64,000 nucleotides of DNA from Indolivaga capnocytophagoides DSM 22835 (GTDB taxonomy: Bacteria > Bacteroidota > Bacteroidia > Bacteroidales > Dysgonomonadaceae): contig NZ_AUFL01000004.1 of the NCBI RefSeq assembly GCF_000426485.1, forward strand, positions 310,001 to 374,000, read 5' to 3'. The notes under the pieces were generated by a model, which saw only the letters and a list, made by a program, of their open reading frames with translations, had not been told where the DNA came from and searched no databases. Shown one piece after another: positions 1,968 through 61,590 of the stretch (position 1 is the stretch's first letter; every line of letters starts with the position of its first letter). The translations under genes and the position numbers were made by a program.

Positions 1968-1978
1968 GGTCTCTGACC
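1968..1978. repeat. GGTCT..GACC palindrome, site 1
   Basis: GGTCTCTGACC, a member of the window-wide palindrome family, lies 13 bases before the ATG of the lipoprotein gene at 1992. A weaker relative, GGTCTTAGCAT, is at 1818-1828. Confidence 0.6.
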
Positions 1979-1991
1979 CTATTTTTTCAGC

Positions 1992-2888
1992 ATGAAGAAC
2001 TTACTGTTATTCATTACGGTATTTATTTTCTTCTCGTGTGCCAAAGATGACTATAACGGGAACGACAGTACCACTCCTATCGACTTGAGGTTCGCTGCAG
2101 AACAGCAAACCATACCGGCCGAAAAAGGAGCGGATTTGTATGCTGTACAAGTATATATATCGGTAGCCGGTTCTGATGATTATGTTGCTTATGCATACGG
2201 ATTGTTCGACAACAACTCCGATATAAAGTTGGTGTTGCCCGATGATGCCAGATACAAAATAGAATCGACCATAGTGATTGACGGTAAACAGTTCGTGAGC
2301 CACGACAGCCTGTCGTACTACGAACCGTTTGTAGCAAATGATCATACTCCGGTTGAGTTATCCAATAAATTCACAATAAGCAGTACCCGTTATTTTACCG
2401 ATCTGTCGGGAAGTAAATCACGTGTTGTATCTCAAACCAAAGACTCAACTTACAACCATATATATCTGATTCCGGCTCTCGACCGGTATTATGGCGAATT
2501 AGCCGACTTCGATCCCGAACTATCACCTAAAGCCGAGGTAAATATGGATAGAGTTGTATTCGGGATGAACCTTTCGATAAAAAACACAACTAAATCAACG
2601 ATCTCCCTTAAAATAGACGGAACACCCGATTCGCTTGTTGTTGAAGGCGGTTCCAACAGAGCATTGGACAGACTGTATACCCTGCCCGACTTCAAAAAAG
2701 CAGGAGAATTACTCGATCCGCTCAAAATAACGATACAACACAACAACGGAGGCGTACTTGTTGAAGGTCAGGGCGAATACTTCGTGAAGAAACAAGCCCG
2801 TGAAATAATTACCCTTACCGTATCGAAAGCCGATAAGACCAAAGCAAGCTACAATTACGACATAGAACGCATAGCCGGATTTTATTGA
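1992..2888 (+). CDS. Secreted lipoprotein of unknown function
   Basis: This 298-residue protein has a lipoprotein signal: MKNLLLFITVFIFFSC with the lipidated Cys at residue 16, followed by AKDDYNGND, the acidic export context seen on Bacteroidetes surface lipoproteins. The rest looks like a beta-rich extracellular protein without a motif I recognise; the two-domain appearance vaguely recalls fimbrillin-associated lipoproteins, but I cannot support that. It is monocistronic: the DnaD-like gene points away and coaA begins 227 bp downstream. A GGTCT..GACC palindrome lies just before the start. Confidence 0.7.
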   Translation: MKNLLLFITVFIFFSCAKDDYNGNDSTTPIDLRFAAEQQTIPAEKGADLYAVQVYISVAGSDDYVAYAYGLFDNNSDIKLVLPDDARYKIESTIVIDGKQFVSHDSLSYYEPFVANDHTPVELSNKFTISSTRYFTDLSGSKSRVVSQTKDSTYNHIYLIPALDRYYGELADFDPELSPKAEVNMDRVVFGMNLSIKNTTKSTISLKIDGTPDSLVVEGGSNRALDRLYTLPDFKKAGELLDPLKITIQHNNGGVLVEGQGEYFVKKQAREIITLTVSKADKTKASYNYDIERIAGFY

Positions 2889-2967
2889 AGCTGCAAATTC
2901 ACAGATAAAAAATTGTATATTGAGGACTTACCTTAATATATCGGCATGTATAGATCATATGTCTACC

Positions 2968-3115
2968 CTTTTTTGTACATTTGCCCCAAAATAAATTTGC
3001 CGTATATAAAAAAAGCATCAGCTGAGACTCAATACCTGTAAAATTGACAGAAAAGGAGTATGCCGACAGCTTATTAATGGTATGGCAATAATGGTCTCCA
3101 ACCAAAAGATTATAA
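2968..3115 (+). promoter_or_regulatory. Probable coaA promoter and leader
   Basis: TACATTTG near 2970 matches the Bacteroidetes -7 box TAnnTTTG. The leader of about 130 bases ends with a degenerate palindrome, GGTCTCCAACC (3093-3103), shortly before the coaA ATG. No convincing -33 box is seen. Confidence 0.4.
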
Positions 3116-4057
3116 ATGGAAATTTCAGCGTTCAGCCCTTATATGCTTTTCAACAGAGAACAATGGGCAGCCTTGCGAGAGTCGGAACCAATGACACTGA
3201 CTCCCGAAGAAGTCGAAAAACTAAAAGGTATCAATGACGAACTGTCGATGGACGAGATTCGGGATATATACCTGCCGTTGTCCCGTTTGCTCAGTTACTA
3301 CGTAACCGCAACCACCAGCCGTCAGGCGGCAATGATGAAGTTTCTGAATCAGGAAGCACGCAAAATACCCTTTATAATAGGTGTAGCGGGCAGTGTTTCG
3401 GTCGGAAAAAGCACTACGTCACGCGTATTACAGGCATTACTTAGCCGATGGAAGGAAAACACAAAAGTAGCGTTGATCACCACTGACGGATTTCTGTATC
3501 CGAATGCCGTATTGGAAGAAAAAGGACTGATGCTGAAAAAAGGCTTTCCTCAGTCATATGATATCCACAGCCTGATACAATTTGTGAGTGATATAAAATC
3601 GGGTAAAACCGAAGTAAAAGCACCTAAATATTCACACCTCATATATGATGTAGTACCCGATGAGTACGAAATTATACGGCAACCCGATATACTGATTATC
3701 GAAGGACTGAACGTCTTGCAGAGCGGGATGGATTATCCGCAGGACAAACCCCGTGTATTTCTTTCGGATTATCTCAATTTCTCCATATATGTGGATGCCG
3801 AAGAAGAACTGCTCGAAAAATGGTACATCTCCCGCTTTCTGAAATTCAGACAGGGTGCATTTGCCGATCCGAAGTCTTATTTCTACAATTTCACGATGCT
3901 GACTGATGGCGGAGCGATACAGATGGCTAAAGGTGTATGGCGTGAAATAAACCGCAAAAATTTACGCAAAAATATATTACCCACACGTGAACGTGCCAGC
4001 CTGATTCTTCATAAAAGCGAAAATCATCAGGTCGATTATGTACGCTTGAAAAGGTAA
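3116..4057 (+). CDS. coaA: Pantothenate kinase, type I
   Basis: CoaA phosphorylates pantothenate, the first and usually rate-controlling step of coenzyme A synthesis, in the cytoplasm. The protein has 313 residues, close to the 316 of E. coli CoaA. The P-loop [12 protein letters not shown] spans residues 89-100, and [10 protein letters not shown] follows about 30 residues later, carrying the Asp expected in the active site. The conserved YDVVPDEY and IIEGLNVLQ segments are present. It is followed after 64 bp by kdsA. A palindrome copy begins at its stop codon, so the two genes may not share one transcript. Confidence 0.93.
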
Positions 4058-4098
4058 AGGTATCAGGTCTTTTTACTATTTTCGCAATCATAAGATTG
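4055..4098 (+). repeat. Palindrome repeat, 5' half copy abutting the coaA stop
   Basis: The degenerate palindrome GGTATCAGGTC (4059-4069) starts one base after the coaA TAA. It is followed by a sequence aligning with the inner part of the long element (TTTTTACTATTTTCGCAATC), which then stops short of the 3' half. Confidence 0.5.
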
Positions 4099-4121
4099 AA
4101 AACAATAAAAAAATATCAAAT

Positions 4122-4919
4122 ATGAATATATCGGAACTAAAAAGCGATAATTTCTTCCTGCTTGCCGGACCTTGTATTATCGAAGGTGAAGAAATGGCAT
4201 TGAATATCGCAGAACAGATCATGCAGATCACCTCTAAGCTCAATATACCTTATGTATTTAAAGGCTCATACCGCAAGGCAAACCGTTCGCGTGTGGATTC
4301 TTTCACAGGAATAGGAGATGAAAAAGCTCTGAAAATATTGCGCAAAGTCCGTGAAACATTCGGCATACCTGTAGTTACGGATATACACGAAGCACACGAA
4401 GCCGCTATGGCTGCCGAATATGTGGATGTACTTCAGATACCTGCATTTCTGTGCCGTCAGACCGATCTTTTGATTGCAGCAGCTAAAACAGGCAAAACAA
4501 TAAACATCAAGAAAGGACAATTTCTGGCTCCTTCGGCTATGAAGTTTGCCGCACAGAAAATAATAGACTCGGGCAATAATAATGTAACGCTTACCGAACG
4601 TGGAGTATCATTCGGATACGGCGATTTAGTTGTAGATTTCAGAGGTATACCCGAAATGCAGGAATTTGGATTTCCGGTTGTTCTGGATGCAACACACTGC
4701 CTGCAAAAACCCAATCAGGCATCGGGAGTAACCGGTGGACAACCTAAACTGATCGAAACCATGTGTAAAGCTGGTATAGCAGTAGGTGCAGACGGTTTAT
4801 TTATAGAAACCCACCCTACCCCTTCGACTGCAAAATCGGATGGTGCAAATATGCTTCCTCTTGATCAATTGGAGGGATTACTTACTAAACTTGTAAGAAT
4901 AAAAGAGGCTATAAGATAA
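4122..4919 (+). CDS. kdsA: 3-deoxy-D-manno-octulosonate 8-phosphate synthase
   Basis: KdsA condenses phosphoenolpyruvate with arabinose 5-phosphate to give KDO 8-phosphate for the lipopolysaccharide core. The 265-residue sequence carries LAGPCIIEG (14-22), FKGSYRKANRSR, the substrate loop region and DATHCLQKPN. Cys18 in AGPC is the metal-ligand Cys of the metal-dependent class, unlike the Asn of the E. coli enzyme, so this copy is probably metal-dependent. The TAA stop overlaps the next ATG by one base (TAATG), so maf is probably translationally coupled. kdsC and kdsD are not nearby. Confidence 0.95.
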   Translation: MNISELKSDNFFLLAGPCIIEGEEMALNIAEQIMQITSKLNIPYVFKGSYRKANRSRVDSFTGIGDEKALKILRKVRETFGIPVVTDIHEAHEAAMAAEYVDVLQIPAFLCRQTDLLIAAAKTGKTINIKKGQFLAPSAMKFAAQKIIDSGNNNVTLTERGVSFGYGDLVVDFRGIPEMQEFGFPVVLDATHCLQKPNQASGVTGGQPKLIETMCKAGIAVGADGLFIETHPTPSTAKSDGANMLPLDQLEGLLTKLVRIKEAIR

Positions 4920-5491
4920 TGGAGTTCAGGTACAAATTAATATTGGCATCTAACTCGCCACGTAGAAAAGAATTATTGTCAGGGCTCGATTACGACTACG
5001 AAGTGGTGGTTATACCCGGTATAGACGAATCTTATCCCGACAATATCGAAAAACGTCAGGTAGCCCAATATATAGCCAAAAAGAAAGCCGCAGCATACGA
5101 AGATTATCTGAAAGATGATACACTCGTTATCACTGCCGATACAGTAGTAATACTGGACAACAAAATATTCGGAAAACCGTCAGATGAAGCCTGTGCCAAG
5201 CAAATGCTCCGTGAACTATCGGGGCGTACGCATCAGGTGGTAACGGGTGTATGCCTCAGTACAGCCGATAAACAGCACGCATTCAGTGTAACATCTGAAG
5301 TAAGGTTCGCTACACTCACCGAGTCTGAAATCGAATATTACGTCACCCGATACAAGCCATTAGACAAAGCCGGTGCATATGGTATTCAGGAATGGATCGG
5401 ATTTGTTGGGGTCGAGTTTATATCCGGCTCCTATTATAATGTAATGGGACTTCCGATACAGCGTCTCTTCAGGGAACTGAAAAACTTCTGA
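4919..5491 (+). CDS. maf: Maf-type nucleotide pyrophosphatase
   Basis: Maf proteins hydrolyse non-canonical or excess dTTP and UTP to monophosphates and are linked to septum control. The 190-residue product has the N-terminal LASNSPRRKELL and the ITADTVV motif, with GKPSDEACAKQMLRELSGRTHQVVTGV following; these are the family's core elements. The dTTP/UTP (YhdE) subgroup is my reading and was not tested. It overlaps kdsA by one base, a pairing also known in other Bacteroidetes. Its TGA stop is directly followed by a long palindrome repeat copy. Confidence 0.92.
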   Translation: MEFRYKLILASNSPRRKELLSGLDYDYEVVVIPGIDESYPDNIEKRQVAQYIAKKKAAAYEDYLKDDTLVITADTVVILDNKIFGKPSDEACAKQMLRELSGRTHQVVTGVCLSTADKQHAFSVTSEVRFATLTESEIEYYVTRYKPLDKAGAYGIQEWIGFVGVEFISGSYYNVMGLPIQRLFRELKNF

Positions 5492-5575
5492 GGTCTCAGT
5501 CCATTATTTATTACCCGTCTAAGTATAATAGCAACAAAACGTTATTGTCTTAAAACTAAATATCGTTCTGTTGCT
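5490..5575 (+). repeat. Long palindrome repeat, copy A
   Basis: GGTCTCAGTCC (5492-5502) directly follows the maf TGA (5489-5491) and shares bases with it. The copy continues with TTATTACCCG, AATAGCAACAAAACGTTATTGT, and an eroded 3' part (AATATCGTTCTGTTGCTT). It fills the gap before the gene at 5594. Confidence 0.65.
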
Positions 5576-5593
5576 TCATGAATAACACTCTAT

Positions 5594-6586
5594 ATGATGA
5601 AACGGACACTTATTGCAATGTATTTATTCTCATCGGCTATTCTATCAAGCAGTGCTCAGGAGCAGGACTCAATAGATTCACCGAGAGCATTTCTTAATTT
5701 AGGGTTTGCAGGCATCTGGTGTACCAATGGCGAAAAAACTGATGAAACGACAAATAACATATCGTTATCATTGATTCATGGCTACAGTTATAATGTATAT
5801 GGCTTTATGCTTGCACCATTTGCAACCGTAAGAAAGTCGATGCACGGACTCCAGACAGGTATGATTAACCTTGCATCAGACATGAAAGGTGTGCAAGCAG
5901 GTTTCGGCAATAATGCAGATAAGCTCAGAGGAATACAGATAGGAGGCTTCAACGGTATAAACCAAGAGTCCGGAGGGCTTCAGATTGGATTAGCCAACTC
6001 CCGCAAATCGGGAGGCATACAGATCGGGTTAGTCAATATCGCCGAACATAATAACTATCCTATAGGTTTGATCAATATCATCAAAGACGGAGATATGTAT
6101 GCGGGAATTATGACCGACGAAATGAGTAATTTCACAGCAACTTTCCGGTCAGGAGGACGATATCTTTACGGCATTGCCGGTTTTGGACATAGTTTTGCAT
6201 CATCCCTCAATCAATGGATATTGGAAGGAGGTATAGGTATACACACTCCGATATTTAACAGGTTAAGAATAGATACCGAAATATCAGCCGCATTGATTAC
6301 CAAATTTTACGGGCGTATACATTTTGGCGATCAGGAAGAAGCAGAACGAAAAGCCGAAGAATATAACTATAAGACAGCAACGAAATACTCTTTCCGTATA
6401 ATGCCTACTTATAGATTCGGTAAACGAATAGAGGTATTTGGAGGACCATCACTCAATTACTTACAATCTCATTGTATGGAGAATGAACGAATATTCCCAT
6501 CTAATTATATGTGGCGAAAATTTACGTCATCGTCCTTGAAGCAGCTCTATTGGGGCTGGACTGCCGGAGTACAATATAAATTATAA
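5594..6586 (+). CDS. Outer-membrane protein with LA_2272-like surface repeats
   Basis: A 330-residue secreted protein with a signal peptide ending near SSSAQEQ. Residues about 85-165 contain a run of degenerate 16-20-residue repeats with the pattern G-x-Q-x-G-x-x-N (GLQTGMIN, GVQAGFGN, GIQIGGFN, GLQIGLAN, GIQIGLVN, IGLINI), resembling LA_2272 surface repeat proteins. The C-terminal half looks like an outer-membrane beta-barrel and ends GVQYKL. The start may be the first or second Met of MMKRTL. It lies 4 bp before the flavin-type gene and probably shares its transcript. Function is unknown. Confidence 0.7.
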   Translation: MMKRTLIAMYLFSSAILSSSAQEQDSIDSPRAFLNLGFAGIWCTNGEKTDETTNNISLSLIHGYSYNVYGFMLAPFATVRKSMHGLQTGMINLASDMKGVQAGFGNNADKLRGIQIGGFNGINQESGGLQIGLANSRKSGGIQIGLVNIAEHNNYPIGLINIIKDGDMYAGIMTDEMSNFTATFRSGGRYLYGIAGFGHSFASSLNQWILEGGIGIHTPIFNRLRIDTEISAALITKFYGRIHFGDQEEAERKAEEYNYKTATKYSFRIMPTYRFGKRIEVFGGPSLNYLQSHCMENERIFPSNYMWRKFTSSSLKQLYWGWTAGVQYKL

Positions 6587-6590
6587 GAAT

Positions 6591-7100
6591 ATGAATAATT
6601 ACGATAATTCGAACATACGACGCCAAGACCGTATACTGGAAGCCGACCAGGCATTGAATCTCCTTATCAACGGGGAATACGGCTTTCTAGCCATGAGTAA
6701 CGACGGGAGCGCATACGGAATCCCGATCAGCTATATCTATTCCGACAACAAGATATACCTGCATTGCGCCCCTGAAGGCGAAAAATTGAGGTATATCGAG
6801 AAAAATCCGTCAGTCTGTTTCTGTGTAGTCGGTTCTACAATGGTACAGCCCGCTAAATTTACCACAGCTTACGAAAGCGTTTTGGCATTCGGAGATATTG
6901 TAACAGTTGATGACAACGATGAGCGGATGAAAGCCCTCGAATTACTGGTCGATAAATATTCTCCTGAATACAAAGAAATCGGACTGAAATATGCTAAAGG
7001 ATCTTTTTCCAGAACCACTGTATTGCGCATAGATATCAAACGGATAAGCGGAAAAAGCAAAAGATCGGATGCGCCGTCAGTCACAGACCGTTCTAAATGA
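6591..7100 (+). CDS. Pyridoxamine 5'-phosphate oxidase-like flavoprotein (NimA type)
   Basis: The 169-residue product looks like a split-barrel FMN-binding protein of the Pyridox_ox_2/NimA type. It has LLINGEYGFLAMSNDGSAYGIPISYIY at 25-52, then IYLHCAPEGEKLRYIEKNPSVCFCVVG, the usual pattern for this family. Relatives include nitroimidazole reductases and uncharacterised flavin reductases, so the substrate cannot be inferred. It begins 4 bp after the surface-repeat gene. A strong terminator follows immediately. Confidence 0.82.
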   Translation: MNNYDNSNIRRQDRILEADQALNLLINGEYGFLAMSNDGSAYGIPISYIYSDNKIYLHCAPEGEKLRYIEKNPSVCFCVVGSTMVQPAKFTTAYESVLAFGDIVTVDDNDERMKALELLVDKYSPEYKEIGLKYAKGSFSRTTVLRIDIKRISGKSKRSDAPSVTDRSK

Positions 7101-7107
7101 AATAACA

Positions 7108-7146
7108 AAAAGAGATACACTTTCGCTAAAGCTGTATCTCTTTTCT
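7108..7146 (+). terminator. Rho-independent terminator
   Basis: AAAAGAGATACA (7108-7119) pairs with TGTATCTCTTTT (7133-7144), with an inner CTTT/AAAG extension, followed by T residues. It ends the 5594-7100 unit. Confidence 0.85.
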
Positions 7147-7334
7147 AAAATTAAGCAATTGATAAAATTAAAGTAGTTATACTTTATATCACAAATATAT
7201 CTTTTTGACAACCAAAACAAAAATTTACTCGACAAATTGACATATCCGATCGATATATAGTGTACAATAATCGGAGAACGGGTTTTACAGCCATTATTTT
7301 ACTAAATTAACACTCATCTTGAGACTCTATTTCT

Positions 7335-7395
7335 TACCTTTGCAGAACTAATATTACAGTAGGGTTTAAGACCCGAAAAGAGAAAACAAAACGAG
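7335..7395 (+). promoter_or_regulatory. cinA promoter with palindrome-like leader site
   Basis: TACCTTTG (7335-7342) is a perfect -7 box. The leader contains GGGTTTAAGACCC (7362-7374), a dyad that may be a diverged member of the GGTCT..AGACC family. No clear -33 box is visible. Confidence 0.5.
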
Positions 7396-8622
7396 ATGAA
7401 AACTGCAATTATTACAATCGGGGATGAAATACTGATAGGACAAATAGTCGATACGAATACAGCCTGGATGGCTCAAAAATTAACAAACGCCGGATTTGAT
7501 GTAACCGAAAAAATATCTATCGGTGATAACGCCCGGCAAATAAAAGACACAATAGCCGATGTCTTCACACGGGTGGATGTTATCCTTACCACCGGAGGAA
7601 TAGGACCGACAAAAGACGATATAACCAAGAAGACCCTCTGCGAATATTATGGTACGGAATTGATATTCGATGATTCGGTATTGGCGAATATACAAAATGT
7701 AGTTTCAACATGGACGGCTTTAAACCCGCTCACCCACGATCAGGCTTATGTTCCGAAAGATTGTACCGTTATACAAAACAAAGTAGGAACAGCCCCCATA
7801 ACATGGTTCGACCGCAATGACAAAGTATTGGTATCCATGCCTGGAGTGCCATACGAAATGAAGTTCAATATGGAGAACGAAATAATACCGCGTCTCCAAT
7901 CGAAATACAGTGCCGAAGCCTATGTCAGCAAGGTGTTTATAGTAGTCGGGTACACCGAATCGGCATTAGCAATCCATCTCACCGACTGGGAAAACAATCT
8001 ACCCGAAGGATTCGGTCTGGCTTATTTACCTTCTCCCGGGGTGATGAAGCTTCGCCTATTCGTAAAAGGTGAAGAACGCCGTCACGAACTGGAAGAAGAA
8101 ATCGTAAAGTTGTATAATCTGCTGGATAAAGCAATTGTTGCCGACAGAGATATTCCATTGGAAAAAATTTTAGGAGAGCATCTTCTTTCATCGGGTCTAA
8201 CGATAGGTACAGCCGAAAGCTGCACAGGCGGCAATATAGCTCACCTTATTACATCTATCGCCGGATCATCGGAATATTTCAAAGGCGGTATAGTTTCGTA
8301 TTCGAACGAAGTAAAATGCAACATACTGAAAGTTTCGGCATCTAATATAGAAAAAGACGGAGCTGTGAGTTGTTCGGTCGTGACAGATATGGCTAAAGGT
8401 GCACAAAAAGCATTAAACGTAGATTGTGCAATAGCTGTATCGGGCATAGCGGGTCCCGGTGGAGGAACCGATGAAAAACCGGTTGGCACGGTATGGATAG
8501 CCACTGCAATAGGAGAACGGCTAGTTGCGAAAAAATATCAAATGGGCAAAAACAGAGATATGAATATTATAAGAGCTTCTAATACCGCCATGATGCAATT
8601 ATTGGAAATGCTGAACGAATAA
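7396..8622 (+). CDS. cinA: CinA-family protein, NMN amidohydrolase/ADP-ribose pyrophosphatase
   Basis: CinA proteins recycle pyridine nucleotides through an N-terminal molybdopterin-binding-like ADP-ribose pyrophosphatase domain and a C-terminal NMN deamidase domain. Both are present in this 408-residue protein: GDEILIGQIVDTNTAWMAQKL and TTGGIGPTKDD in the N-terminal 170 residues, and TIGTAESCTGGNIAHLIT with AVSGIAGPGGGTDEKPVGTVWIA in the last 150. The length is standard for the two-domain form. It has its own -7 box upstream and no close operon partner; a lipoprotein gene follows after 44 bp. Confidence 0.93.
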   Translation: MKTAIITIGDEILIGQIVDTNTAWMAQKLTNAGFDVTEKISIGDNARQIKDTIADVFTRVDVILTTGGIGPTKDDITKKTLCEYYGTELIFDDSVLANIQNVVSTWTALNPLTHDQAYVPKDCTVIQNKVGTAPITWFDRNDKVLVSMPGVPYEMKFNMENEIIPRLQSKYSAEAYVSKVFIVVGYTESALAIHLTDWENNLPEGFGLAYLPSPGVMKLRLFVKGEERRHELEEEIVKLYNLLDKAIVADRDIPLEKILGEHLLSSGLTIGTAESCTGGNIAHLITSIAGSSEYFKGGIVSYSNEVKCNILKVSASNIEKDGAVSCSVVTDMAKGAQKALNVDCAIAVSGIAGPGGGTDEKPVGTVWIATAIGERLVAKKYQMGKNRDMNIIRASNTAMMQLLEMLNE

Positions 8623-8666
8623 GCGTTATAAACTTATCAAACATACAACATTCAAAATTTAAACAC

Positions 8667-9203
8667 ATGAAACGGACGTATTTTACTTTTTTATCAATAA
8701 TAGTATTTGTATCCACTATATTTATCAGTTGTGGAAGTGATGACAGTGATAACCGTACGTCATACACATTTACAGCCGTAGCATCGACAAATTATCCCAT
8801 CAAAGGGTTTGCCGACCAAACAGTTGTAAATACAGAGCCTGTAACAGTTCTTCTTGATGATATGCTGAAAGGAAATGATTATGTTTCGCCTATAACTAAA
8901 GGAGAATTATTCCCTACTCAAGGTACAGCTCTCGAAATTATAGGACTAAAAAGTGATGCTTCTCTCAAAAATTTTAAAATCACGGTAAATGATGTTACCA
9001 AAACATTTACAGAAATAAAAGAAAGTGATGCAAACCTATATACAAAAGATATGATCAGTTTTATGGATGAGACATTTACAAGAATGATTACTCGCAAAAA
9101 GCTAACAATATCTATTTCTTTCACTCCAAGCCAGACAATTACAGATCAGGATAATGTGTATTTAAAGATTGCTTACAACGGAAGATACACCTATCTGAAA
9201 TAA
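8667..9203 (+). CDS. Small lipoprotein, unknown function
   Basis: A 178-residue protein with a lipoprotein signal, FVSTIFISCGSDDSD, lipidated Cys at about residue 22 and an acidic stretch after it that favours surface export in Bacteroidetes. The mature part is beta-strand-like and shows no family I recognise. It starts 44 bp after cinA without an obvious promoter or terminator between them, so read-through from cinA is possible. Confidence 0.65.
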   Translation: MKRTYFTFLSIIVFVSTIFISCGSDDSDNRTSYTFTAVASTNYPIKGFADQTVVNTEPVTVLLDDMLKGNDYVSPITKGELFPTQGTALEIIGLKSDASLKNFKITVNDVTKTFTEIKESDANLYTKDMISFMDETFTRMITRKKLTISISFTPSQTITDQDNVYLKIAYNGRYTYLK

Positions 9204-9297
9204 GGATATTTAACACTCAGTAGATGTTTTTTTTTAAACAAATTCAAACAAAGGGCAGATATAATTGTTCTACTACTAAGGAATAATTAAAATACAT

Positions 9298-9849
9298 ATG
9301 ACTAAAAAGATATATACCATTGTTGCATTTCTTCTTATAGGCTGTATGCTGACTCTTACAGCTCAAAAGAAAACTTTATACGATTTCAAAGTAAAAGACA
9401 TCGACGGAAAACCGTATGATCTTGCAAAACTGAAAGGAAAAAAAGTACTGATTGTTAATGTTGCATCTAAATGCGGTTTAACACCTCAGTACGCACAACT
9501 CGAAGAACTTTATCAGAAGTACAAAGATCAGGGATTAATTATATTGGGTTTTCCGAGTAATGATTTTAAAGAACAAGAACCGGGTACAAATGCCGAAATA
9601 AAAGAATTCTGCACACTGAATTATGGAGTTACTTTCCCTATAATGGATAAGATAACTGTTGTGGGCAATAAAAAGGTTCCACTCTATAAATGGCTGACAG
9701 AAAAGACTGAAAACGGCAAATTTGACGCTGAAGTTCAATGGAACTTTCAGAAATTTATGATCGATACCGATGGCCAGGTTTCCGGTTATGTTTTACCAAA
9801 GGGAAGTCCATTAAGTGCCGAGATAATAAGCTGGATTGAAAAACCTTGA
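9298..9849 (+). CDS. Glutathione peroxidase-family thiol peroxidase
   Basis: A 183-residue peroxidase of the GPX fold that reduces hydroperoxides, in bacteria usually with thioredoxin. The peroxidatic Cys59 lies in NVASKCGLT, Gln93 in the EQEPG segment, and Trp148-Asn149 in VQWNFQKF, completing the catalytic tetrad. Cys105 (EFCTLNYG) is in the position of the resolving Cys in thioredoxin-dependent members. It is exported: the N-terminus is a signal peptide cleaved either after LTA (residue 22) or as a lipoprotein at LIGC (Cys16). The enzyme therefore acts in the periplasm or on a membrane face. Confidence 0.9.
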   Translation: MTKKIYTIVAFLLIGCMLTLTAQKKTLYDFKVKDIDGKPYDLAKLKGKKVLIVNVASKCGLTPQYAQLEELYQKYKDQGLIILGFPSNDFKEQEPGTNAEIKEFCTLNYGVTFPIMDKITVVGNKKVPLYKWLTEKTENGKFDAEVQWNFQKFMIDTDGQVSGYVLPKGSPLSAEIISWIEKP

Positions 9850-9852
9850 TCT

Positions 9853-9960
9853 TAAGGTCTCAGGTCTATCTGTTATCCATATCTAAATGTAAGATCAATA
9901 GATAGTTATTGCTTTAAAATAGAATATTAAATACTTACTGTTACTTAATATATTTAACAA
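9853..9960 (+). repeat. Long palindrome repeat, copy B
   Basis: GGTCTCAGGTC (9856-9866) follows the peroxidase stop by a few bases. The inner TTTGCAA region is eroded, but AGTTATTGCTTTAAAAT and ATTAAATACTTACTGTTACT are conserved. It ends at the A-rich upstream region of the ompA-type gene. Confidence 0.7.
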
Positions 9961-10045
9961 AATAACAAAAAAATTAAAAAAAACTATGTATCTTTCGCCC
10001 AACAAAGGGCTAAATTTTAGGGATTCCATTGTTTATCTAGAAATT

Positions 10046-11197
10046 ATGAATATGAAAAAATTTTACTTATTTGCTGCAAGCACACTTCTTGCATTATCAG
10101 TTAACGCTCAGGAAAAAGCATTGAAACAATACGGATTTGGGGATAACTGGTTCATTCAGGGACAAGTTGGGGGGTCATACACTTTTAGTGAAAACTCCAG
10201 TAAAGCAGACCTTTTTGATGTGGTAACACCTCATGTCGCATTGTCAGTAGGAAAACACTTCTCTCCTATTGCCGGAGCACGTTTACAAGTCGGAGGATGG
10301 GAAAGCAAAACTTATCTTGGCGAAGCTTTAGACAAAACGTACAAAAACAAATACATTCAGGCAAACGCAGACGCGTTGCTGAATTTAACAAATCTATTCT
10401 CTACATACGAAGGTGATAAAGCTTTTAACCTATATGGTATTTTAGGTCTTGGTTATGTGCATACATTTGCAGACAGAGACATCAAAGAAGCTGATGTAAA
10501 AACAACAAACACTATTGTTCCTCGTGTAGGTTTACAAGCTGATTTCCGTTTGACAGAAAGCCTGAGCCTTAATGTTGAAGCTACAGGTAACCTGATGGCC
10601 GACAGATTTAACGGAATTGTTGGAGGTAAAAATAACGATGCTACATTGAACCTGTTAGCAGGTTTGACATACCGTTTTACTCCCGGAGGATTCCAAACAG
10701 TTGACGTAATTGATCCTAGCGAATTAAGTGCTGTTAATGACAAAGTAAACGAGTTACAATCTCAGTTAAGAAACAAAGACAGACAAATTCAGGAATACAA
10801 AGCATCTGTTGCTGGTCTTGAAAGAAAACTAGCGGAAAAACCTGCTGAAGTTGTAACTAAAGGCGAAAGCGAAGTTGTATTGAATGCTGTAGTAGTATTC
10901 CGTATCGGTAGTGCTAAACTTGAACAAAATCAGGATATTAACATTTATAACGCTGCAAAATATCTGCAAGACAATAAAGATGTTAATGTAACAGTTACAG
11001 GATATGCTGATAAGAGTACAGGTACAGCTGCTATCAACCAAAGATTATCGGAACAAAGAGCTAAAGCCGTTGCTGATATCCTTATCAAGAAATATGGTAT
11101 CGAAGCTAACCGTATAACTACAGAAGCTAGTGGCGACAGAGTTCAACCATTCCAGATTGATTCTTGGAACCGTGTAGTAATCTTCACTGCTAAATAA
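10046..11197 (+). CDS. OmpA-family outer-membrane porin with peptidoglycan-binding domain
   Basis: The mature protein has an N-terminal beta-barrel (roughly residues 20-220, ending in GLTYRF), a coiled-coil linker (VNDKVNELQSQLRNKDRQIQEYKASVAG) and a C-terminal OmpA domain (about 265-380) with TGYADKSTGTAAINQRLSEQRAKAV, which binds peptidoglycan. It links the outer membrane to the wall. I chose ATG 10046 because MNMKKFYLFAASTLLALSVNAQ is a clean signal peptide. The reading frame is open back to 9986, but that segment holds a promoter-like TATCTTTC and would bury the signal. It is probably highly expressed. Confidence 0.9.
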   Translation: MNMKKFYLFAASTLLALSVNAQEKALKQYGFGDNWFIQGQVGGSYTFSENSSKADLFDVVTPHVALSVGKHFSPIAGARLQVGGWESKTYLGEALDKTYKNKYIQANADALLNLTNLFSTYEGDKAFNLYGILGLGYVHTFADRDIKEADVKTTNTIVPRVGLQADFRLTESLSLNVEATGNLMADRFNGIVGGKNNDATLNLLAGLTYRFTPGGFQTVDVIDPSELSAVNDKVNELQSQLRNKDRQIQEYKASVAGLERKLAEKPAEVVTKGESEVVLNAVVVFRIGSAKLEQNQDINIYNAAKYLQDNKDVNVTVTGYADKSTGTAAINQRLSEQRAKAVADILIKKYGIEANRITTEASGDRVQPFQIDSWNRVVIFTAK

Positions 11198-11226
11198 TTT
11201 TAAGCAGAACAGATAAAATATCAATT

Positions 11227-11262
11227 AAAAGGCTGTCTCAGTAATGAGGCGGCCTTTTTCCT
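11227..11262 (+). terminator. Terminator after the OmpA gene
   Basis: AAAAGGC (11227-11233) through CTCA pairs with TGAG through GCCTTTT (11252-11258) around the loop GTAA. The stem is 14 bp with two G.U pairs, followed by a T-run. Confidence 0.85.
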
Positions 11263-11394
11263 TTTAAGCAGAACCTGCATAAACTGTGTTTAATTAAGAA
11301 CAATCGGTAGGGATTCAGTGTTAGTCAAATAAGATAGAGAAACAACTGCCCTTCTCTAAAAGAATCAATATAATATTAATCCTAAACAATTTAC

Positions 11395-12486: not shown

Positions 12487-12540
12487 AAAAAATTGAAGTT
12501 GCTTATAACCGACTCTCTGAGTTTATAAGCAACTTCAATA
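12485..12540 (-). terminator. Bidirectional stem, strongest for the minus-strand gene
   Basis: A perfect 17-bp stem (12492-12508 with 12523-12539) lies between converging genes. The T-run follows the stem on the minus strand (complement of 12485-12491), so it mainly terminates the small minus-strand gene, and it may also end the MscS transcript. Confidence 0.85.
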
Positions 12541-12569
12541 TCACCCTATAATAAAAAGCACGATGTATA

Positions 12570-12830: not shown

Positions 12831-12947
12831 GGTAATATCGTTTTTAAGTGGTCTTGTTATTATAACAGACAATAAAGGGATATAGTTCTCCGAAAAATCT
12901 TTTTAACATAAAATAAATCTGATAGTTGAAGTCTTTTTTTTATTAAG

Positions 12948-12998
12948 TATCTTTGTATAAGATTCTGCTTGATTTTTTATGCATAATCTTATACAAAA
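12948..12998 (+). promoter_or_regulatory. Promoter overlapped by a 13-bp inverted repeat
   Basis: A -33-like GTTG (12925-12928), a 19-bp spacer and TATCTTTG (12948-12955) form a promoter for the gene at 13023. TTTGTATAAGATT (12952-12964) and AATCTTATACAAA (12985-12997) are a perfect inverted repeat whose left arm begins inside the -7 box. Confidence 0.6.
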
Positions 12999-13859: not shown

Positions 13860-13868
13860 TTCGGGCAG

Positions 13869-51924: not shown

Positions 51925-51955
51925 TATATTTGTTGCGTTTTAGGTCTGAGACCTG
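51925..51955 (-). repeat. Promoter-type palindrome copy before malY
   Basis: TATATTTG (51925-51932), ten bases, then a perfect GGTCTGAGACC (51943-51953). The -7 box and palindrome read toward the downstream gene, the inverted orientation of the long element. Confidence 0.7.
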
Positions 51956-52037
51956 CTAATTATTTTATTGCATTGACCGGCTAAAGTTGGCTACCAATTG
52001 CAATAGGTCATTAAACTTCTCATTTTACTTAACTTAT

Positions 52038-55479: not shown

Positions 55480-55568
55480 GGTCGCAGACCTGTTTTTTAT
55501 ATTTTATACAGCAAGGTTAATTAGCTAGCGCTATAACACTTACTTTGCGAACAAAAAGGTCTAAGACC
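55480..55568. repeat. Compound divergent palindrome element
   Basis: Two palindromes, GGTCGCAGACC (55480-55490) and GGTCTAAGACC (55558-55568), flank a 67-bp core centred on the palindrome AGCTAGCGCT. TTACTTTG (55540-55547) faces the right palindrome. On the minus strand TAACCTTG faces the left one. It lies between the diverging genes DUF3943 and terC. Confidence 0.6.
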
Positions 55569-55630
55569 TAAAAACACCAGTACCCCTAATAATCTTAACC
55601 GATTTATTATAAAAATATCTGTCAAGCCAT

Positions 55631-56512: not shown

Positions 56513-56588
56513 TCATAAAGGATCATTTTTGCTAAAATAGTATACGTTTTTGATTGATGCGTAGGATTGCGGGTCTTCATAGTTTTAC

Positions 56589-56596
56589 TATATTTG
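56589..56596 (+). promoter_or_regulatory. Phosphohexomutase promoter -7 box
   Basis: TATATTTG (56589-56596), with an ATTG 19 bases upstream as the likely -33 element, about 40 bases before the ATG. Confidence 0.65.
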
Positions 56597-56635
56597 TATC
56601 TAAAGAAAACGAATAATCACACAAATATAAAATTC

Positions 56636-58381
56636 ATGGAAAACAAAGAATTACTAGACTTGGTTACTTCTCGGGCTAATTCGTGGTTGGAAGGCAATTA
56701 CGATGCAGAGACTAAAGCCGAAGTAAAAAAGTTAATGGATAGCTCTGATAAAAGCGAACTGATCGAATGCTTTTACAAAGATCTTGAATTCGGAACAGGA
56801 GGGCTTCGTGGTATTATGGGTGTAGGTTCTAACCGTATGAATAAATATACAGTTGGGGCAGCTACACAAGGTTTGTCAAACTATTTATTGAAAGAATTTG
56901 CAAATTTACCCGAAATAAAAGTTGTTATCAGTTATGACTGTCGCAACAACAGTAAGAAATTCGCTCAAATAACAGCTGATGTATTTACCGCTAACGGAAT
57001 AAAAGTATATCTGTTTGAGAATCTAAGACCTACTCCCGAAGTATCTTTTGCAATCCGTAAATTAGGATGTCAAAGTGGTGTTATGCTTACTGCTTCTCAC
57101 AATCCGAAAGAATACAACGGCTACAAAGCATATTGGAACGACGGAGCGCAGGTTACACCTCCTCACGATTCTAATATTATAGACGAAGTAAACAAAGTAA
57201 CTGCTGCTGATATCAAATTTGAAGGCAAACCATCCCTGATTGAAAAATTAGGAGAAGATATGGATAACCAATTTATCGAAGCAGTACGCAGTGTATTATT
57301 ATCACCCGAATCGGTGAAAAAACATGGCAATATCGGAATCGTTTATACTCCAATTCATGGAACAGGAGGGCAGTTGGTTCCTAAAGCTCTTAAAGCATAC
57401 GGATTTACAAACATCATTCATGTTCCCGAACAGGATGTTGTAAGTGGAGATTTCCCCACAGTAAAATCACCGAATCCAGAAGAACCTGCGGCAATGGCGA
57501 TGGCTGTTCAGAAAGGAATAGAAACCGGAGCTGATCTTGTTTTCGCTACAGACCCGGATGCAGACCGTTTTGGTGCAGGTGTACGTGATGATAATGGTAA
57601 CTTTGTTTTATTAAACGGTAATCAGACAATGATTATTCTCGTTTATTATCTTGTTACCCGTTGGAGAGAGCTAGGTAAGCTTACAGGAACAGAATACACT
57701 GTTCGCACTATTGTGACTAGCGAACTGACTCAGACTATTTCAGAAAAGAATGGCGTGGAAATGTTTGAATGTTTCACAGGATTTAAATGGGTAGCAACAG
57801 TTATGCGCGAACTTGAAGGTAAACGTAAATACATCGGTGGCGGTGAAGAAAGCTACGGATTCCTTGCCGTAGACTTCATCCGTGATAAAGATTCTGTATC
57901 TGCTGCTGCTTTATTTGCCGAAATCGCCGCTTGGTGCAAAGATAACGGACGTACTATTTATCAGATGCTTCAGGATATTTATGTTGAATATGGCTTCTCT
58001 AAAGAAAAAGGTATTTCTGTTGTGAAAAAAGGAATAACCGGAGCTCAGGAGATACAAGCTATGATGGATAAGTTCCGTAATAATCCGTTAAAAGAAATTG
58101 CTGGTTCAAAAGTCATTACCGTAAAAGACTACATTCCTCTTGAATCAAAAAATACTATAACAGGAGAGGTTAGCAAGATGGATATGCCTACAACTTCTAA
58201 TGTATTGCAATACTTTACCGAAGATAAGACTAAAGTATCTATCCGTCCTTCAGGAACAGAACCTAAAATTAAGTTCTATATCGAAGTTCATGGAAAACTA
58301 GCGTCTCGTGCAGACTTTTCAGCAGTAAATGAAGAAACAGACAAAAAGATCGAGCAAATCTGTAAAGATTTAGGTATCTGA
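56636..58381 (+). CDS. Phosphoglucomutase/phosphomannomutase (alpha-D-phosphohexomutase)
   Basis: A 581-residue phosphohexomutase. LEFGTGGLRGIMGVGSNRMN marks the start of domain 1, VMLTASHNPKEYNGYKAYW holds the phosphorylated Ser, FATDPDADRFGAGV the metal-binding Asp cluster, GGGEESYGFLAV the sugar loop, and SIRPSGTEPKIKFY the phosphate loop. It interconverts glucose or mannose 1- and 6-phosphates. I chose ATG 56636 because it follows a promoter-like TATATTTG and begins the conserved region; the frame extends upstream to 56567 without support. Confidence 0.93.
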   Translation: MENKELLDLVTSRANSWLEGNYDAETKAEVKKLMDSSDKSELIECFYKDLEFGTGGLRGIMGVGSNRMNKYTVGAATQGLSNYLLKEFANLPEIKVVISYDCRNNSKKFAQITADVFTANGIKVYLFENLRPTPEVSFAIRKLGCQSGVMLTASHNPKEYNGYKAYWNDGAQVTPPHDSNIIDEVNKVTAADIKFEGKPSLIEKLGEDMDNQFIEAVRSVLLSPESVKKHGNIGIVYTPIHGTGGQLVPKALKAYGFTNIIHVPEQDVVSGDFPTVKSPNPEEPAAMAMAVQKGIETGADLVFATDPDADRFGAGVRDDNGNFVLLNGNQTMIILVYYLVTRWRELGKLTGTEYTVRTIVTSELTQTISEKNGVEMFECFTGFKWVATVMRELEGKRKYIGGGEESYGFLAVDFIRDKDSVSAAALFAEIAAWCKDNGRTIYQMLQDIYVEYGFSKEKGISVVKKGITGAQEIQAMMDKFRNNPLKEIAGSKVITVKDYIPLESKNTITGEVSKMDMPTTSNVLQYFTEDKTKVSIRPSGTEPKIKFYIEVHGKLASRADFSAVNEETDKKIEQICKDLGI

Positions 58382-58394: not shown

Positions 58395-58405
58395 GGTCTC
58401 AGACC
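58395..58405 (+). repeat. Perfect palindrome after phosphohexomutase
   Basis: GGTCTCAGACC, flanked by TTAA and TATTA, 14 bases after the stop. The inner part of the element is absent. Confidence 0.65.
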
Positions 58406-58456: not shown

Positions 58457-58684
58457 TCTAAACCCGAAGCTGATTATTTATTTTTATCTATAAGTAAAAT
58501 ATTCTTTGAAATCAGCCTTCAGCCAACAGTTATCATTACCAAAATCAGATTAGCAGATAAAAAGGTATCACCTGAAAATGTGTATTTTTGGCGTTACTTT
58601 TGTTACCTTTTAGAACTTAAATTTAAGGACACACTTAAAAGCGATAACAGTCTGTTGTATCTATGCTTACAATGTTAACAAAAA

Positions 58685-58695
58685 GGTCTGCGATC
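58685..58695. repeat. Degenerate palindrome upstream of the riboswitch
   Basis: GGTCTGCGATC preceded by AAAA and followed by TTAAAA. Confidence 0.45.
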
Positions 58696-58774
58696 TTAAA
58701 ATTCTAATGCTCAGATATTAGATCAATAATACAAATCTTTTGGCTGACAAGCAGTCGAATATCAATAATATTAT

Positions 58775-58782
58775 TAACTTTG
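58775..58782 (+). promoter_or_regulatory. Riboswitch -7 box
   Basis: TAACTTTG, a perfect TAnnTTTG match, about 10 bases before the first riboswitch helix. No TTTG lies 19-21 bases upstream. Confidence 0.55.
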
Positions 58783-58792
58783 CATCGTTATT

Positions 58793-58970
58793 CAGGTGCT
58801 TTTTATTCATATATCCGAATAAAAAGTGAAAAGGGAATCAGGTGTAAATCCTGAACAGACCCCGCTGCTGTAAGCTTCTCTGATGTTATTGGTACTGCTT
58901 GATCCACTGTTTATGCACAACGGGAAGGACAACCAATAATGAAGCAAGTCAGAAGACCTGCCTGATGTAT
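58793..58970 (+). ncRNA. Cobalamin (adenosylcobalamin-type) riboswitch
   Basis: The conserved blocks appear in order: CAGGTGC, AAAAGGGAATCAGGTG, AAATCCTGAACAGACCCCGC with TGCTGTAA (the B12 box core), ATCCACTG, CGGGAAGGAC, and GCAAGTCAGAAGACCTGCC. Such RNAs repress B12 synthesis or uptake genes when the coenzyme is abundant. No such gene follows: the next gene is pflB, about 290 bases downstream, with an inverted repeat copy in between. Confidence 0.92.
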
Positions 58971-59109
58971 ACATTTTTGTGGCTTTCGGGTTTATAAAGC
59001 AGACAAATAAGATTCATATAACTAAAAACTGGTCAATAGAATTTATGGTAGTATTATTGTTATGTATGAAACCACAACAATAATTACCTGTATGTATTTA
59101 AGCTGTTTC

Positions 59110-59206
59110 GATAGTTTAGGTAACAGATAGTATCTTAGGATATATCCGAGGAATAACTACCTATTGCTTTTATATTTGCAAAGTCGATAAAAAAGTCTGA
59201 GACCTT
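59110..59206 (-). repeat. Long palindrome repeat, copy G (inverted)
   Basis: On the minus strand: GGTCTCAGACT, TTTTTATCGACTTTGCAAAT, AAAGCAATAGGTAGTTATT, then GATACTATCTGTTACCTAAA. On the plus strand the core reads TATATTTG (59171-59178), a perfect -7 box facing pflB, 80 bases before its ATG. Confidence 0.75.
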
Positions 59207-59257
59207 ATTGGTTACTCTTATTATAAATTTATATACATAAACACTATATTATATAAA

Positions 59258-61489
59258 ATGGAAGCATATAGAAATTTTAAAGGTACTAAATGGCAGAATG
59301 AAATTAATATTAACAATTTCATTTTGGAAAATTATACCGAGTACTCCGGAAACGAATCTTTTCTTGAAGGTCCGACTGAAGCGACCAATCAATTATGGAA
59401 GCTTCTTAGTGAAATGTTTCTCGAAGAAAAGAAAAATGGAATTTATGATGCCGAAACCCGCATTCCATCGCAAATAGATGCATATGGCGCTGGATATATA
59501 AATAAAGATCTTGAAAAGATAGTCGGTGTACAAACAGATAAGCCACTGAAAAGAGCTATTTTCCCGAATGGTGGTCTTCGTATGGTTCAACAGAGCCTTG
59601 AAGAATATGGCTATAAACTGGATGAAACCACTGCTGAGATTTTCACAAAATACCGCAGGACACACAACGAAGGAGTATTTGCGGCCTATACAGACAGTAT
59701 TCGTCGTGCCCGCAGCAACGGCTTATTGACAGGTCTGCCCGATGCTTATGGCCGCGGCCGTATTATCGGAGACTACCGCCGTGTTGCCCTTTATGGTATA
59801 GACAGACTTATCAGCGAAAGAGAGAAACGTTTCAAAGAGTGTGACCCTATAGTTATGACGGATGATTTGATCCGTTTGAGAGAAGAATTAAGTACACAAA
59901 TACAAGCATTAAAAGCCTTAAAACGTATGGCTGCTTCTTACGGCTTTGATATCTCTCAATCGGCAAAAAATGCACAGGAGGCTATACAGTGGACTTATTT
60001 TGCATATCTTGGTGCTATTAAAGACCAAAACGGTGCCGCGATGAGCCTTGGACGTGTAACTACTTTCCTTGATATCTTCATCGAAAGAGACTTGAAAGAA
60101 GGTACACTTACAGAACAGGGAGCACAAGAGCTGATCGATCATTTCATTATGAAACTTCGTATCGTTCGTTTCCTTAGAACAAATGAATACAACGAATTAT
60201 TCTCCGGAGATCCGGTTTGGGTTACTGAATCAATCGGAGGTATGACTAACAACGGTAAATCGATGGTTACTAAAAACAGCTATCGAATGCTACATACTTT
60301 ATATAACCTTGGACCCGCTCCGGAACCGAACCTTACTATCCTTTGGAGTGACAGGCTTCCTGAGAACTGGAAGAAATATTGTGCAAAGGTATCAATTGAT
60401 ACATCTTCACTTCAGTATGAGAATGATGATTTGATGCGTCCTCAATTGGGTGACGACTATGGTATTGCATGTTGTGTGTCTCCTATGCGTATAGGACATC
60501 AGATGCAATTTTTCGGTGCTCGTGCCAATCTGCCTAAATCTCTCCTTTATACTATAAACGGGGGTAAAGACGAGAAAACGAAAGCTCAGGTATTGCCAAA
60601 ACACTGGGTGGAAAAAATTTCGGGAGATTATCTTGAATTTGATGAAGTTTGGGATAAATTTGACCGTACACTCGACTGGGTAGCCGAAACATACGTCAAA
60701 GCATTGAATATTATCCACTATATGCACGACAAATATTCATACGAAGCTCTTGAAATGGCTTTGCATGATGTAGATATTGTACGCACTCAAGCATTCGGAG
60801 TTTCAGGTTTATCTATTATTGCAGATTCATTTGCGGCTATCAAATTCGGGAAAGTACGTATTGTAAGAGATGCTGATGGCGATGCTGTTGATTATATACA
60901 AGAAAAAGAATATGTTCCGTTTGGAAATAATGACGATAATACAGACCAGTTTGCCATTGATATCGTTGAAAAATTCATGAGCAAAATCCGTAAACGCAAG
61001 ATGTATAAAGATGCAATACCTACTCAATCGGTATTAACTATTACTTCTAATGTTGTTTATGGAAAGAAAACAGGTAACACCCCTGACGGTCGCCGCGATG
61101 GCACTCCATTTGCGCCGGGAGCCAATCCAATGCACGGACGTGATACCAGAGGTGCAGTAGCATCACTTTCGTCTGTCGCTAAATTACCATTCGAACATGC
61201 CAATGACGGTATTTCTTATACGTTTGCCATTACGCCGAACACTTTGGGTAAAAACAGAGAAGAGGAAGCGGCAAATCTATCGGGACTGATGGATGGATAT
61301 TTTGCCCAGACAGGTCATCACTTGAATATAAATGTCTTTGATCGTAACCTATTGATCGATGCAATGGATCATCCCGAAAAATATCCTCAGTTAACAATTC
61401 GTGTATCAGGATATGCTGTAAACTTTGTTAAATTAACAAAGGAACAACAATTGGATGTTATCAATAGAACGATTACAACTTCGTTCTAG
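59258..61489 (+). CDS. pflB: Pyruvate formate-lyase (formate C-acetyltransferase)
   Basis: PflB splits pyruvate with CoA into acetyl-CoA and formate in anaerobic fermentation. The 743-residue glycyl-radical enzyme shows the catalytic pair Cys405-Cys406 in GIACCVSPM and the radical Gly718 in [31 protein letters not shown] is a typical segment. Upstream are a cobalamin riboswitch and a promoter-type repeat copy. The stop codon is shared with the palindrome of copy E. The activating enzyme gene pflA follows. Confidence 0.96.
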
Positions 61490-61590
61490 GTTGCAGACCT
61501 TTTATTACTTTGGCAATTATAACAATCTGAATTTGTTATAATTTGAAAATATATAATTAAATACATTCTTTTACTTAGTATATTTACAAG
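61488..61590 (+). repeat. Long palindrome repeat, copy E
   Basis: The pflB TAG (61487-61489) runs into GGTTGCAGACC (61489-61499), then TTTTATTACTTTGGCAATTA, AATTTGTTATAATTTG, and AATTAAATACATTCTTTTAC. It fills most of the pflB-pflA gap. Confidence 0.72.

Follow-up and report, generated by a model that had tools for sequence, protein, structure and literature searches.

A short dispersed repeat of a Dysgonomonadaceae genome with conserved ends and an exchangeable middle: a probable non-autonomous mobile element

Introduction

The interspersed repeats of Streptococcus pneumoniae include RUP, an element of 107 bp, BOX, a modular element (boxA, boxB and boxC) whose modules also occur alone, and SPRITE, whose terminal inverted repeat has only 4 bases (excerpt of PMC3049150). 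Here we describe a likewise short, protein-less and interspersed element of about 93 bp, with the dyad GGTC-NNN-GACC in its left end, in a stretch of 64,000 nucleotides (the window) of contig NZ_AUFL01000004.1 of Indolivaga capnocytophagoides DSM 22835, and follow it through the whole genome (G000; 4.38 Mb, 38 contigs) and through other Bacteroidales. Set against the repeats in the excerpt of PMC3049150, the present element belongs to another phylum and is unrelated in sequence, its ends recur across families with replaced middles, its copies are concentrated at start and stop codons, and an insertion sequence sharing its ends was not found.

Within the Bacteroidales, the BrickBuilt miniature inverted-repeat transposable element (MITE) of Porphyromonas gingivalis is bounded on either side by 12-bp IS5-type terminal inverted repeats (TIRs), numbers 19 copies in the strain examined, makes target duplications other than the one discussed here and, like one relative of our element, has internal tandem repeats (excerpt of PMC4596501). 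The TIR ends given there, GAGACCTTTGCA and ...AAAGGTCTC, look like half of the dyad (AAGGTCT/AGACCTT), a similarity that we regard as a lead only, whereas the right end TACTTA of our element has no IS5-type TIR. Repetitive extragenic palindromes (REPs) and bacterial interspersed mosaic elements (BIMEs), with their GTAG and CGTC families, are likewise small palindromes in many copies, and CGTC REPs occur also in Bacteroidetes without a dedicated transposase (excerpt of PMC3733652); unlike them, our element has no GTAG or CGTC tag, a shorter palindrome and a 93-bp body with a second end. The TAACTGA heptamer repeats of Beggiatoaceae and some Bacteroidetes are also short, lie just upstream of starts and may have spread horizontally, but they form direct heptamer arrays and not a dyad within a 93-bp element with fixed ends (excerpt of PMC4679880).

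An open-access literature search returned no description of the present sequence among the matches listed and, for small mobile repeats of Bacteroidales, only P. gingivalis elements among the matches listed; such repeats seem little catalogued in this order. Correia elements have long TIRs, a TA target duplication and a link to IS630; the terminal repeat here is 4 bp long and the ends are otherwise asymmetric. As in the Correia elements reviewed in PMC10969869 (excerpt), copies are short and often lie immediately upstream of genes.

Results

The original prediction listed 20 positions in the window at which an 11-bp dyad recurs, and named two outcomes that would count against it, a rest of the genome with no excess of this motif and long copies that fail to align beyond it; neither was borne out. 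The window held 30 matches to GGTCTNAGACC at up to two mismatches, compared with 13.5 expected from shuffles, and none of 100 shuffles reached 30. In the whole genome AAGGTCTNAGACCTT occurred at 100 places and its reversed control at none. The form GGTCNNNGACC was found 39 times in 464 kb, 8 times in the window and 31 times in C1:1-400000, which was sampled without regard to the motif; 35 of these 39 were intergenic, and the runner-up among dyads of tetramers with three G or C reached 9 in the same sequence. The motif is therefore real. Among the 20 listed positions 5 were exact, 7 had one mismatch, 6 had two and two (4059 and 18685) had three; because 13.5 chance matches are expected in the window, the dyad by itself does not separate a lone two-mismatch site from a chance match. 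A longer repeat included 12 of the listed positions, three more had intact arms, and the remaining five were weaker.

The dyad is made up of constant arms, GGTC and GACC, around a variable 3-base spacer, which reads TNA in 93 of the 140 intact-arm dyads of this genome. As the prediction had stated for all but one of its positions, the dyads are intergenic: 135 of the 140 lay outside genes called with a simple script of our own, whose start positions are approximate. In the window the motif at 13045 falls inside an open reading frame (ORF) as called, and we suspect that the start codon of this ORF was chosen too far upstream.

The repeat unit is a discrete element of about 93 bp, 5'-TAAGGTCTCAGACCTWTTTATT...TTTCTGTTACTTA-3', with the 11-bp palindrome as its conserved left end. 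Alignment and an iterated profile gave a 93-bp element, TAAGGTCTCAGACCTATTTATT...CATTAAATACTTTCTGTTACTTA, so that the long copies do align well past the dyad. The first alignment had 35 rows from 39 copies, with three window copies picked by eye removed or added; a hand list of 17 copies and two more without a tail had been left out before those 39. When a 10-kb piece of the window was compared with the genus, 40 candidates being scored per genome, the repeat matches listed for the copy at 25306 mostly started at query positions 4304-4310 and stopped at 4399-4404, and such fixed-end matches were listed for dozens of sites of G000 as well as for the four remaining near-complete congeners. The profile hidden Markov model (HMM) gave 120 hits in 864 kb, of which 400 kb had been picked for holding perfect dyads. 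Thirty-four hits were in C1:1-400000 and 12 in the window, the latter accepted at E<1e-3, and six of the 12 (9853, 25306, 40130, 43719, 59117 and 61488) had been in the training alignment of the profile. Extrapolation from the 34 copies in 400 kb of C1 suggests, very roughly, some 370 copies per genome.

In near-full copies the ends were better conserved than the middle, and at least three subfamilies could be told apart by eye. Among the copies of the window and C1:1-400000, divergence was 0.18-0.21 in the dyad, 0.17-0.22 in the tail and 0.25-0.36 in the body; in the whole set, half of which was picked for perfect dyads, the dyad seemed better preserved (0.11-0.15 against 0.16-0.22). Because dyad and tail diverge alike, and less than the body, these data point to conservation of the ends, and selection on the dyad in particular after insertion was rejected. 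Both arms were intact in only 21 of the 45 long copies of the window and C1 sample that possess a left end.

In several copies the head was separated from the body by additional blocks (27 to about 80 bp), and similar blocks recurred, which makes the element a mosaic. In addition, 70 of the 140 intact-arm dyads had no body (solo dyads), 19 of them touching other repeated sequence, and together with the extra blocks this amounts to a modularity of the BOX kind. A recurring block of about 75-80 bp (TCTCGCGATTCGGCAAAG) was observed between head and body at L011:16877, L008:17860, C1:100786 and L022:6286 of G000, and is perhaps a second repeat family.

The sister species Dysgonomonas alginatilytica (G002) and Dysgonomonas sp. 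HGC4 (G005) are about 90% identical in the loci compared and differ by whole copies. At the stop codon orthologous to window position 27607, HGC4 has a long copy with a decayed dyad and D. alginatilytica has none, a net difference of 83 bp, the sites reading ATG-TAAGG...TTTACTTAA-TATGAGG and ATG-TGA-TATGAGG, respectively. The 76 kb aligned between the two species contained 120 indels of 14 bp or more, ten of them with a dyad inside or beside, and two of these ten were clean whole elements of 86 and 90 bp (C14 and C2) that D. alginatilytica has and HGC4 lacks. Three junctions between the two species fit a TA at the target and a TA at both ends of the filled site if one substitution is allowed in two of them and further flank differences in the third.

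Differences were also seen with the other congeners. Two dyads at 3982 and 4126 of L019 were missing from G004, in which the gap between the same genes measures 37 instead of 171 bp; the gap orthologous to 40130 was 70 bp shorter in G004 and had no dyad; and the gaps orthologous to 51943 had no dyad in G001, G003, G004 and G005. The site of 25306 showed a degraded long copy in G004, a solo dyad in G001 and at most a decayed trace in G002 and G005. The dyad between ftsA and ftsZ stood at the same place in G000 and G001, had one arm mismatch in G002 and G005 and was absent from G004. A search with FtsA, which places the host with Dysgonomonas, gave 11 loci from Dysgonomonas records, including D. 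macrotermitis, D. alginatilytica and HGC4; a dyad (up to one mismatch, or intact arms) was present in two of them, those of D. alginatilytica and HGC4, and absent from the other nine, D. macrotermitis among them. In an ortholog table of 39 copy-by-genome rows, drawn from 16 copies (window, L011 and L019; of the 20 window positions only 25309, 40208, 51943, 55480 and 55558) with both flanking genes matched, the dyad was kept at 9 or more of 10 letters in 7 rows and with both arms intact in 3. As to its wider occurrence, AAGGTCTNAGACC was found in all five near-complete genomes of the genus, including G000, and not in the 62%-complete G003, and five of 31 other genomes of the family carried 1 to 6 occurrences.

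Related elements were recognised in other Bacteroidales, where TTAAGGTCTNAGACC occurred in 12 of 393 genomes and 8 of 206 genera. In G052, which belongs to another family (27% GC in the sample), TTAAGGTCTNAGACC heads an element of 104-107 bp with a different middle, and a profile gave 129 hits in 258 kb chosen around dyads. Of 71 full copies, none was contained entirely in a called gene; of 31 gene ends on the head side, 8 overlapped the TAA of the element; and the spacer read TTC in 38 of 52 intact copies. In the G052 stretches (L191-L210) the elements covered up to about 5% of the selected sequence, and some subfamily copies were nearly identical. Among the 40 of 313 first-look candidates of G105 that were scored, at least 20 matches, including one identical pair, spanned 91 or more of the 107 bases. 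The dyad stretches covered were 5 of 8 in G105, 5 of 5 in G195, 5 of 6 in G260, 2 of 2 in both G119 and G029, and 1 of 2 in G023, with G010, G208 and G293 outside this sample. Both ends were seen in G260 (4 of 5 stretches) and G029 (1 of 2), and the head in G195 and G119, with a tail-like GGTACTTA in one of the five G195 stretches; no tail was recognisable in the G119 stretches and the G023 stretch. The tail AACTTTTGTANNNGTRCTTA was common to G052, G105 and G260, three genomes whose near-identical copies suggest recent activity.

A second family of G105 combined TAAGG with a 43-bp tail about 86% identical, and 8-bp tandem repeats (AATGATAC/AATTATTC/AATGGTTC; L280, L291, L293-L295, L297-L301 and L304) replaced the dyad. 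Eleven of its 13 tailed copies had lengths of 81, 97, 105, 113, 121 or 129 bp, that is, 81 plus a multiple of 8 bp, and the other two had 96 and 98 bp. Because this family keeps TAAGG and the tail but lacks the dyad, it is the former two that seem to be the most general ends. By comparison of the sequences, then, the ends are kept across Bacteroidales families and the middles are unrelated. Viral contigs contained no match to the 20-base head pattern, phages none to the G105 element and plasmids none to the window copy 25305-25401; the tail pattern occurred in 9 viral contigs, none with GGTC-NNN-GACC in the preceding 130 bases, and the octamer-repeat element gave just partial, low-score plasmid and phage matches.

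The position of the copies relative to genes was compared with random placement within the same gaps (2000 trials). Among 65 long intact-arm copies, 12 had a head flush with a stop codon, where 0.3 were expected and no trial gave more than 4, and in 21 a start codon lay 5-45 nt from the head, where 7.6 were expected and no trial gave more than 17. Of 67 solo dyads, 39 had a start codon 5-45 nt from the head (10.4 expected, maximum 21). Solos were oriented by their T-richness, a criterion open to bias from A-rich leaders; when both sides were counted, a start codon was near in 42 of 67, compared with about 21 expected. The head faced a gene start in 41 long copies and a gene end in 26, and these figures were 53 and 15 for solos. 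TAnnTTTG is the -7 promoter box of Bacteroidetes. This box was not enriched upstream of start-proximal dyads (6 of 66, compared with 72 of 595 background windows), and a promoter inside the element was rejected on these figures.

Discussion

We consider it probable that these repeats are non-autonomous, MITE-like transposable elements on whose TAAGG...TACTTA ends some transposase acts in trans, inserting them at TA. Such an element, of about 80-130 bp, would start with TAAGG, here within the dyad GGTC-NNN-GACC followed by TWTTTA, and would continue through an exchangeable middle to a right end ACTTTCTGTTACTTA or AACTTTTGTANNNGTRCTTA. The enzyme would recognise both ends, and insertion at TA would leave TA on both sides. 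Copies in coding sequence would be purged by selection, so that the survivors would lie in intergenic gaps, at stops and between promoter and start codon, and at stop codons the element's own TAA would restore the stop. We interpret the solo dyads as left ends that were truncated or have decayed, of which some may have been retained in the 5' leader as a hairpin or operator.

Discrete ends, a high copy number, presence and absence between sister species, and ends common to several families around unrelated middles are established for this repeat. Together with the TA junctions and the stop-flush copies, they favour the small non-autonomous mobile repeat that was one of two proposals in the original prediction; the other, a widespread regulatory cassette, keeps some plausibility, chiefly for solo dyads near start codons. 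The repeat is, like a MITE, short (about 93 bp), non-coding and numerous, with 34 copies in the 400 kb of C1 and another 12 in the window. A family of hundreds of copies that keeps its ends and replaces its interior allows one to ask which enzyme recognises these ends, and whether transposon ends turn into leader elements.

Several observations weigh against a mobile element of this kind. TIRs of at least about 10 bp, as in MITEs, are absent: the terminal inverted repeat is just TAAG/CTTA, or 2 bp without the TA, and an imperfect TAAGNNNNCAGA at best. Three of the six genus genomes each had a single match above the cut-off to the Y1 transposase family PF01797, the own genome had none, and the 3.2 kb around each of these three congener matches contained no intact-arm dyad; DDE_3 (PF13358, IS630-type) matched none of the six genus genomes and 3 of 14 controls. 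No ORF-bearing version appeared in a limited head-to-tail pattern scan (258 kb in G052, 864 kb in G000; spans up to 4 kb without an intervening head). The TA target, a trait of IS630/Tc1-derived repeats such as RUP and Correia elements, is read here from three junctions, of which two show one flanking dinucleotide differing from TA and the third (C14) has further differences in its right flank, and none of the three is polarised as gain or loss. The congener gaps at 51943 are not consistently shorter (167-346 compared with 198 bp). The closest pair among 87 near-full Dysgonomonas copies is only 91% identical, so activity in Dysgonomonas would not be very recent, and the solo dyads are only partly accounted for.

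Among candidate movers, transposases of the REP-associated tyrosine transposase (RAYT) and IS630 types found no support in the PF01797 and PF13358 results. The only head-to-tail spans of G000 up to 4 kb without another head, at L014:13965 (2.8 kb) and L017:5795 (1.9 kb), were rejected as ORF-bearing elements, being ordinary copies (full profile hits at L014:13965-14054 and L017:7647-7734) whose other end misses the pattern; the G052 scan gave three spans of 201-226 bp.

The preference of the original prediction for a protein-binding dyad over an RNA hairpin is not supported, because the constant arms are of 4 bases and enclose a variable spacer of three bases for which a palindromic sequence is not required (mostly TNA in this genome, TTC in G052). 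A triloop hairpin would fit the dyad at least as well as a continuous operator, both modes of binding being putative. It is possible, though doubtful, that GGUC-NNN-GACC folds into a hairpin in the 5' leaders of mRNAs and serves there as a controlling RNA element, whether the transposon spread it or left it behind; this reading is compatible with mobility. The 4-base arms and variable triloop, the predicted stability of -4.6 to -7.2 kcal/mol, the proximity to start codons, and one leader family with GGGTC...GACCC, in which the next pair is G-C instead of A-T, all agree with this possibility. The stem, however, is weak, presence at orthologous sites is mixed, and none of its five pairs was changed on both sides in 35 aligned copies. 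A structure spanning the whole element was rejected: single sequences pair head with tail, but the alignment keeps only the dyad hairpin, with no two-sided change, and the columns that covary among 87 copies seem to reflect differences between subfamilies. Similar leaders at L006:17769, L007:11733, L008:9206 and L010:2697, 5710, 5750 and 10944 share the dyad, partly as GGGTC...GACCC, and an inverted repeat GCAGTAAAGTGCA...TGCACTTTACTGC.

A more speculative proposal is that mosaic transposons carried GGTC-NNN-GACC, as hairpin or operator, to a fixed position 5-45 nt upstream of very many starts, and that the head was kept after loss of the body because it acts on the expression of the downstream gene; in other lineages the same ends bear another interior, such as the 8-bp tandem repeats of G105. 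If true, the family would amount to a natural means of writing and rewiring leader elements genome-wide.

That the dyad is the site of a putative global regulator just upstream of gene starts, with the longer similarity as an extended regulatory region, we hold to be unlikely. The head-side start codons of 39 of the 67 solos, the shared place of the ftsA-ftsZ dyad in G000, G001 and, with one arm mismatch, G002 and G005, and the rarity of the dyad in other genera are what an operator would predict, although the orientation of solos comes from T-richness and may be biased by A-rich leaders. Discrete insertion or deletion differences of 83-90 bp, the stop codons that directly adjoin 12 of the 65 long copies, arms both intact in fewer than half of the left ends of long copies (21 of 45), a dyad that diverges about like the right end and is kept in just 7 of 39 ortholog rows, a spacer that need not be palindromic, and the lack of TAnnTTTG enrichment all argue against it.

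A conserved intrinsic terminator after genes, TAA-GGTCTCAGACC-TTTTTATT, is very improbable: it would account for the stem and T-run and for the stop-flush copies, and the copy at 13057-13043 was one of 20 sites picked up by a consensus scan of window positions 1-20000 (14.3 expected), but most copies are wrongly oriented for it, with the head towards a gene start, and a conserved 93-bp body would be superfluous. A REP/BIME system moved by a RAYT is hardly credible despite the short palindrome, high copy number, mosaic composition and inverted pairs, since the repeat has no GTAG or CGTC tag, its dyad is preceded by TTAA, its palindrome has 11 bp compared with 20-40 bp for REPs (excerpt of PMC3733652), it possesses a second conserved end, and the own genome has no Y1_Tnp match and hence no RAYT flanked by the repeat, just as no intact-arm dyad stood at the three congener loci.

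Copies in the Window

The copies of the window are collected in Table 1. For annotation, the element accounts for repeated sequence at stop and start codons that is able to shift gene calls.

Table 1. Long elements and lone dyads in the window (positions from the first nucleotide of the window; HMM, profile score)
Feature	Position	Strand	HMM	Remarks
Long element	5491-5576	+	32.6 bits, E 5.9e-8	dyad 5492-5502; directly 3' of stop of ORF 4919-5491
Full-length element	9853-9947	+	46.9 bits	dyad 9856-9866; 3 bp past stop of ORF 9298-9849
Left part of long element	12996-13058	-	29.3 bits, positions 1-74	dyad 13045-13055
Left part of long element	18682-18746	+	21.5 bits, E 1.7e-4	decayed dyad at 18685
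Full-length element	25306-25398	+	74.4 bits	dyad 25309-25319; top score of the window
Full-length element	40130-40221	-	66.9 bits	dyad 40208; overlaps stop codon of minus-strand ORF 40219-41010
Full-length element	43719-43807	+	55.8 bits	at listed start of minus-strand ORF 42333-43754
Diverged long element	51942-52031	+	20.7 bits, E 2.9e-4	dyad 51943-51953
Left part of long element	55513-55569	-	24.3 bits	dyad 55558-55568; inverted pair with dyad 55480
Long element, right end not recognised	58621-58698	-	46.7 bits, positions 1-78	upstream of cobalamin riboswitch
Full-length element	59117-59207	-	52.8 bits	head about 50 nt upstream of ORF 59258
Full-length element	61488-61577	+	47.3 bits	overlaps stop of ORF 59258-61489
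Solo dyad GGTCTCTGACC	1968-1978			intact arms; 13 nt upstream of ORF 1992
Solo dyad, one mismatch	18585-18595			from motif scan
One-mismatch dyad	27608-27618	+		directly past stop codon TAA of ORF 26051-27607; read as remnant
Solo dyad, one mismatch	55480-55490	+		intact arms
Exact solo dyad	58395-58405	+		13 bp past stop of ORF 56567-58381
Weak dyad, two mismatches	13934-13944			9 nt upstream of ORF 13954; alone not above chance
Weak dyad, two mismatches	3093-3103			12 nt upstream of ORF 3116; alone not above chance
Very weak dyad, three mismatches	4059-4069	+		65% similar to copy 25306 over 43 nt

A copy elsewhere in the own genome is 90% identical to that at 25306. The very weak dyad at 4059 is perhaps a decayed left end, and the minus-strand ORF 42333-43754 probably has its real start near 43690. 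The inverted dyads of 55480-55568 enclose 67 bp between divergent genes. Rfam gave three matches in the window, and none above the gathering score covers an element; among them are a cobalamin riboswitch at 58777-58979 (+), close to the long copy 58621-58698, and a Bacteroidete tryptophan leader RNA at 47065-47198 (-).

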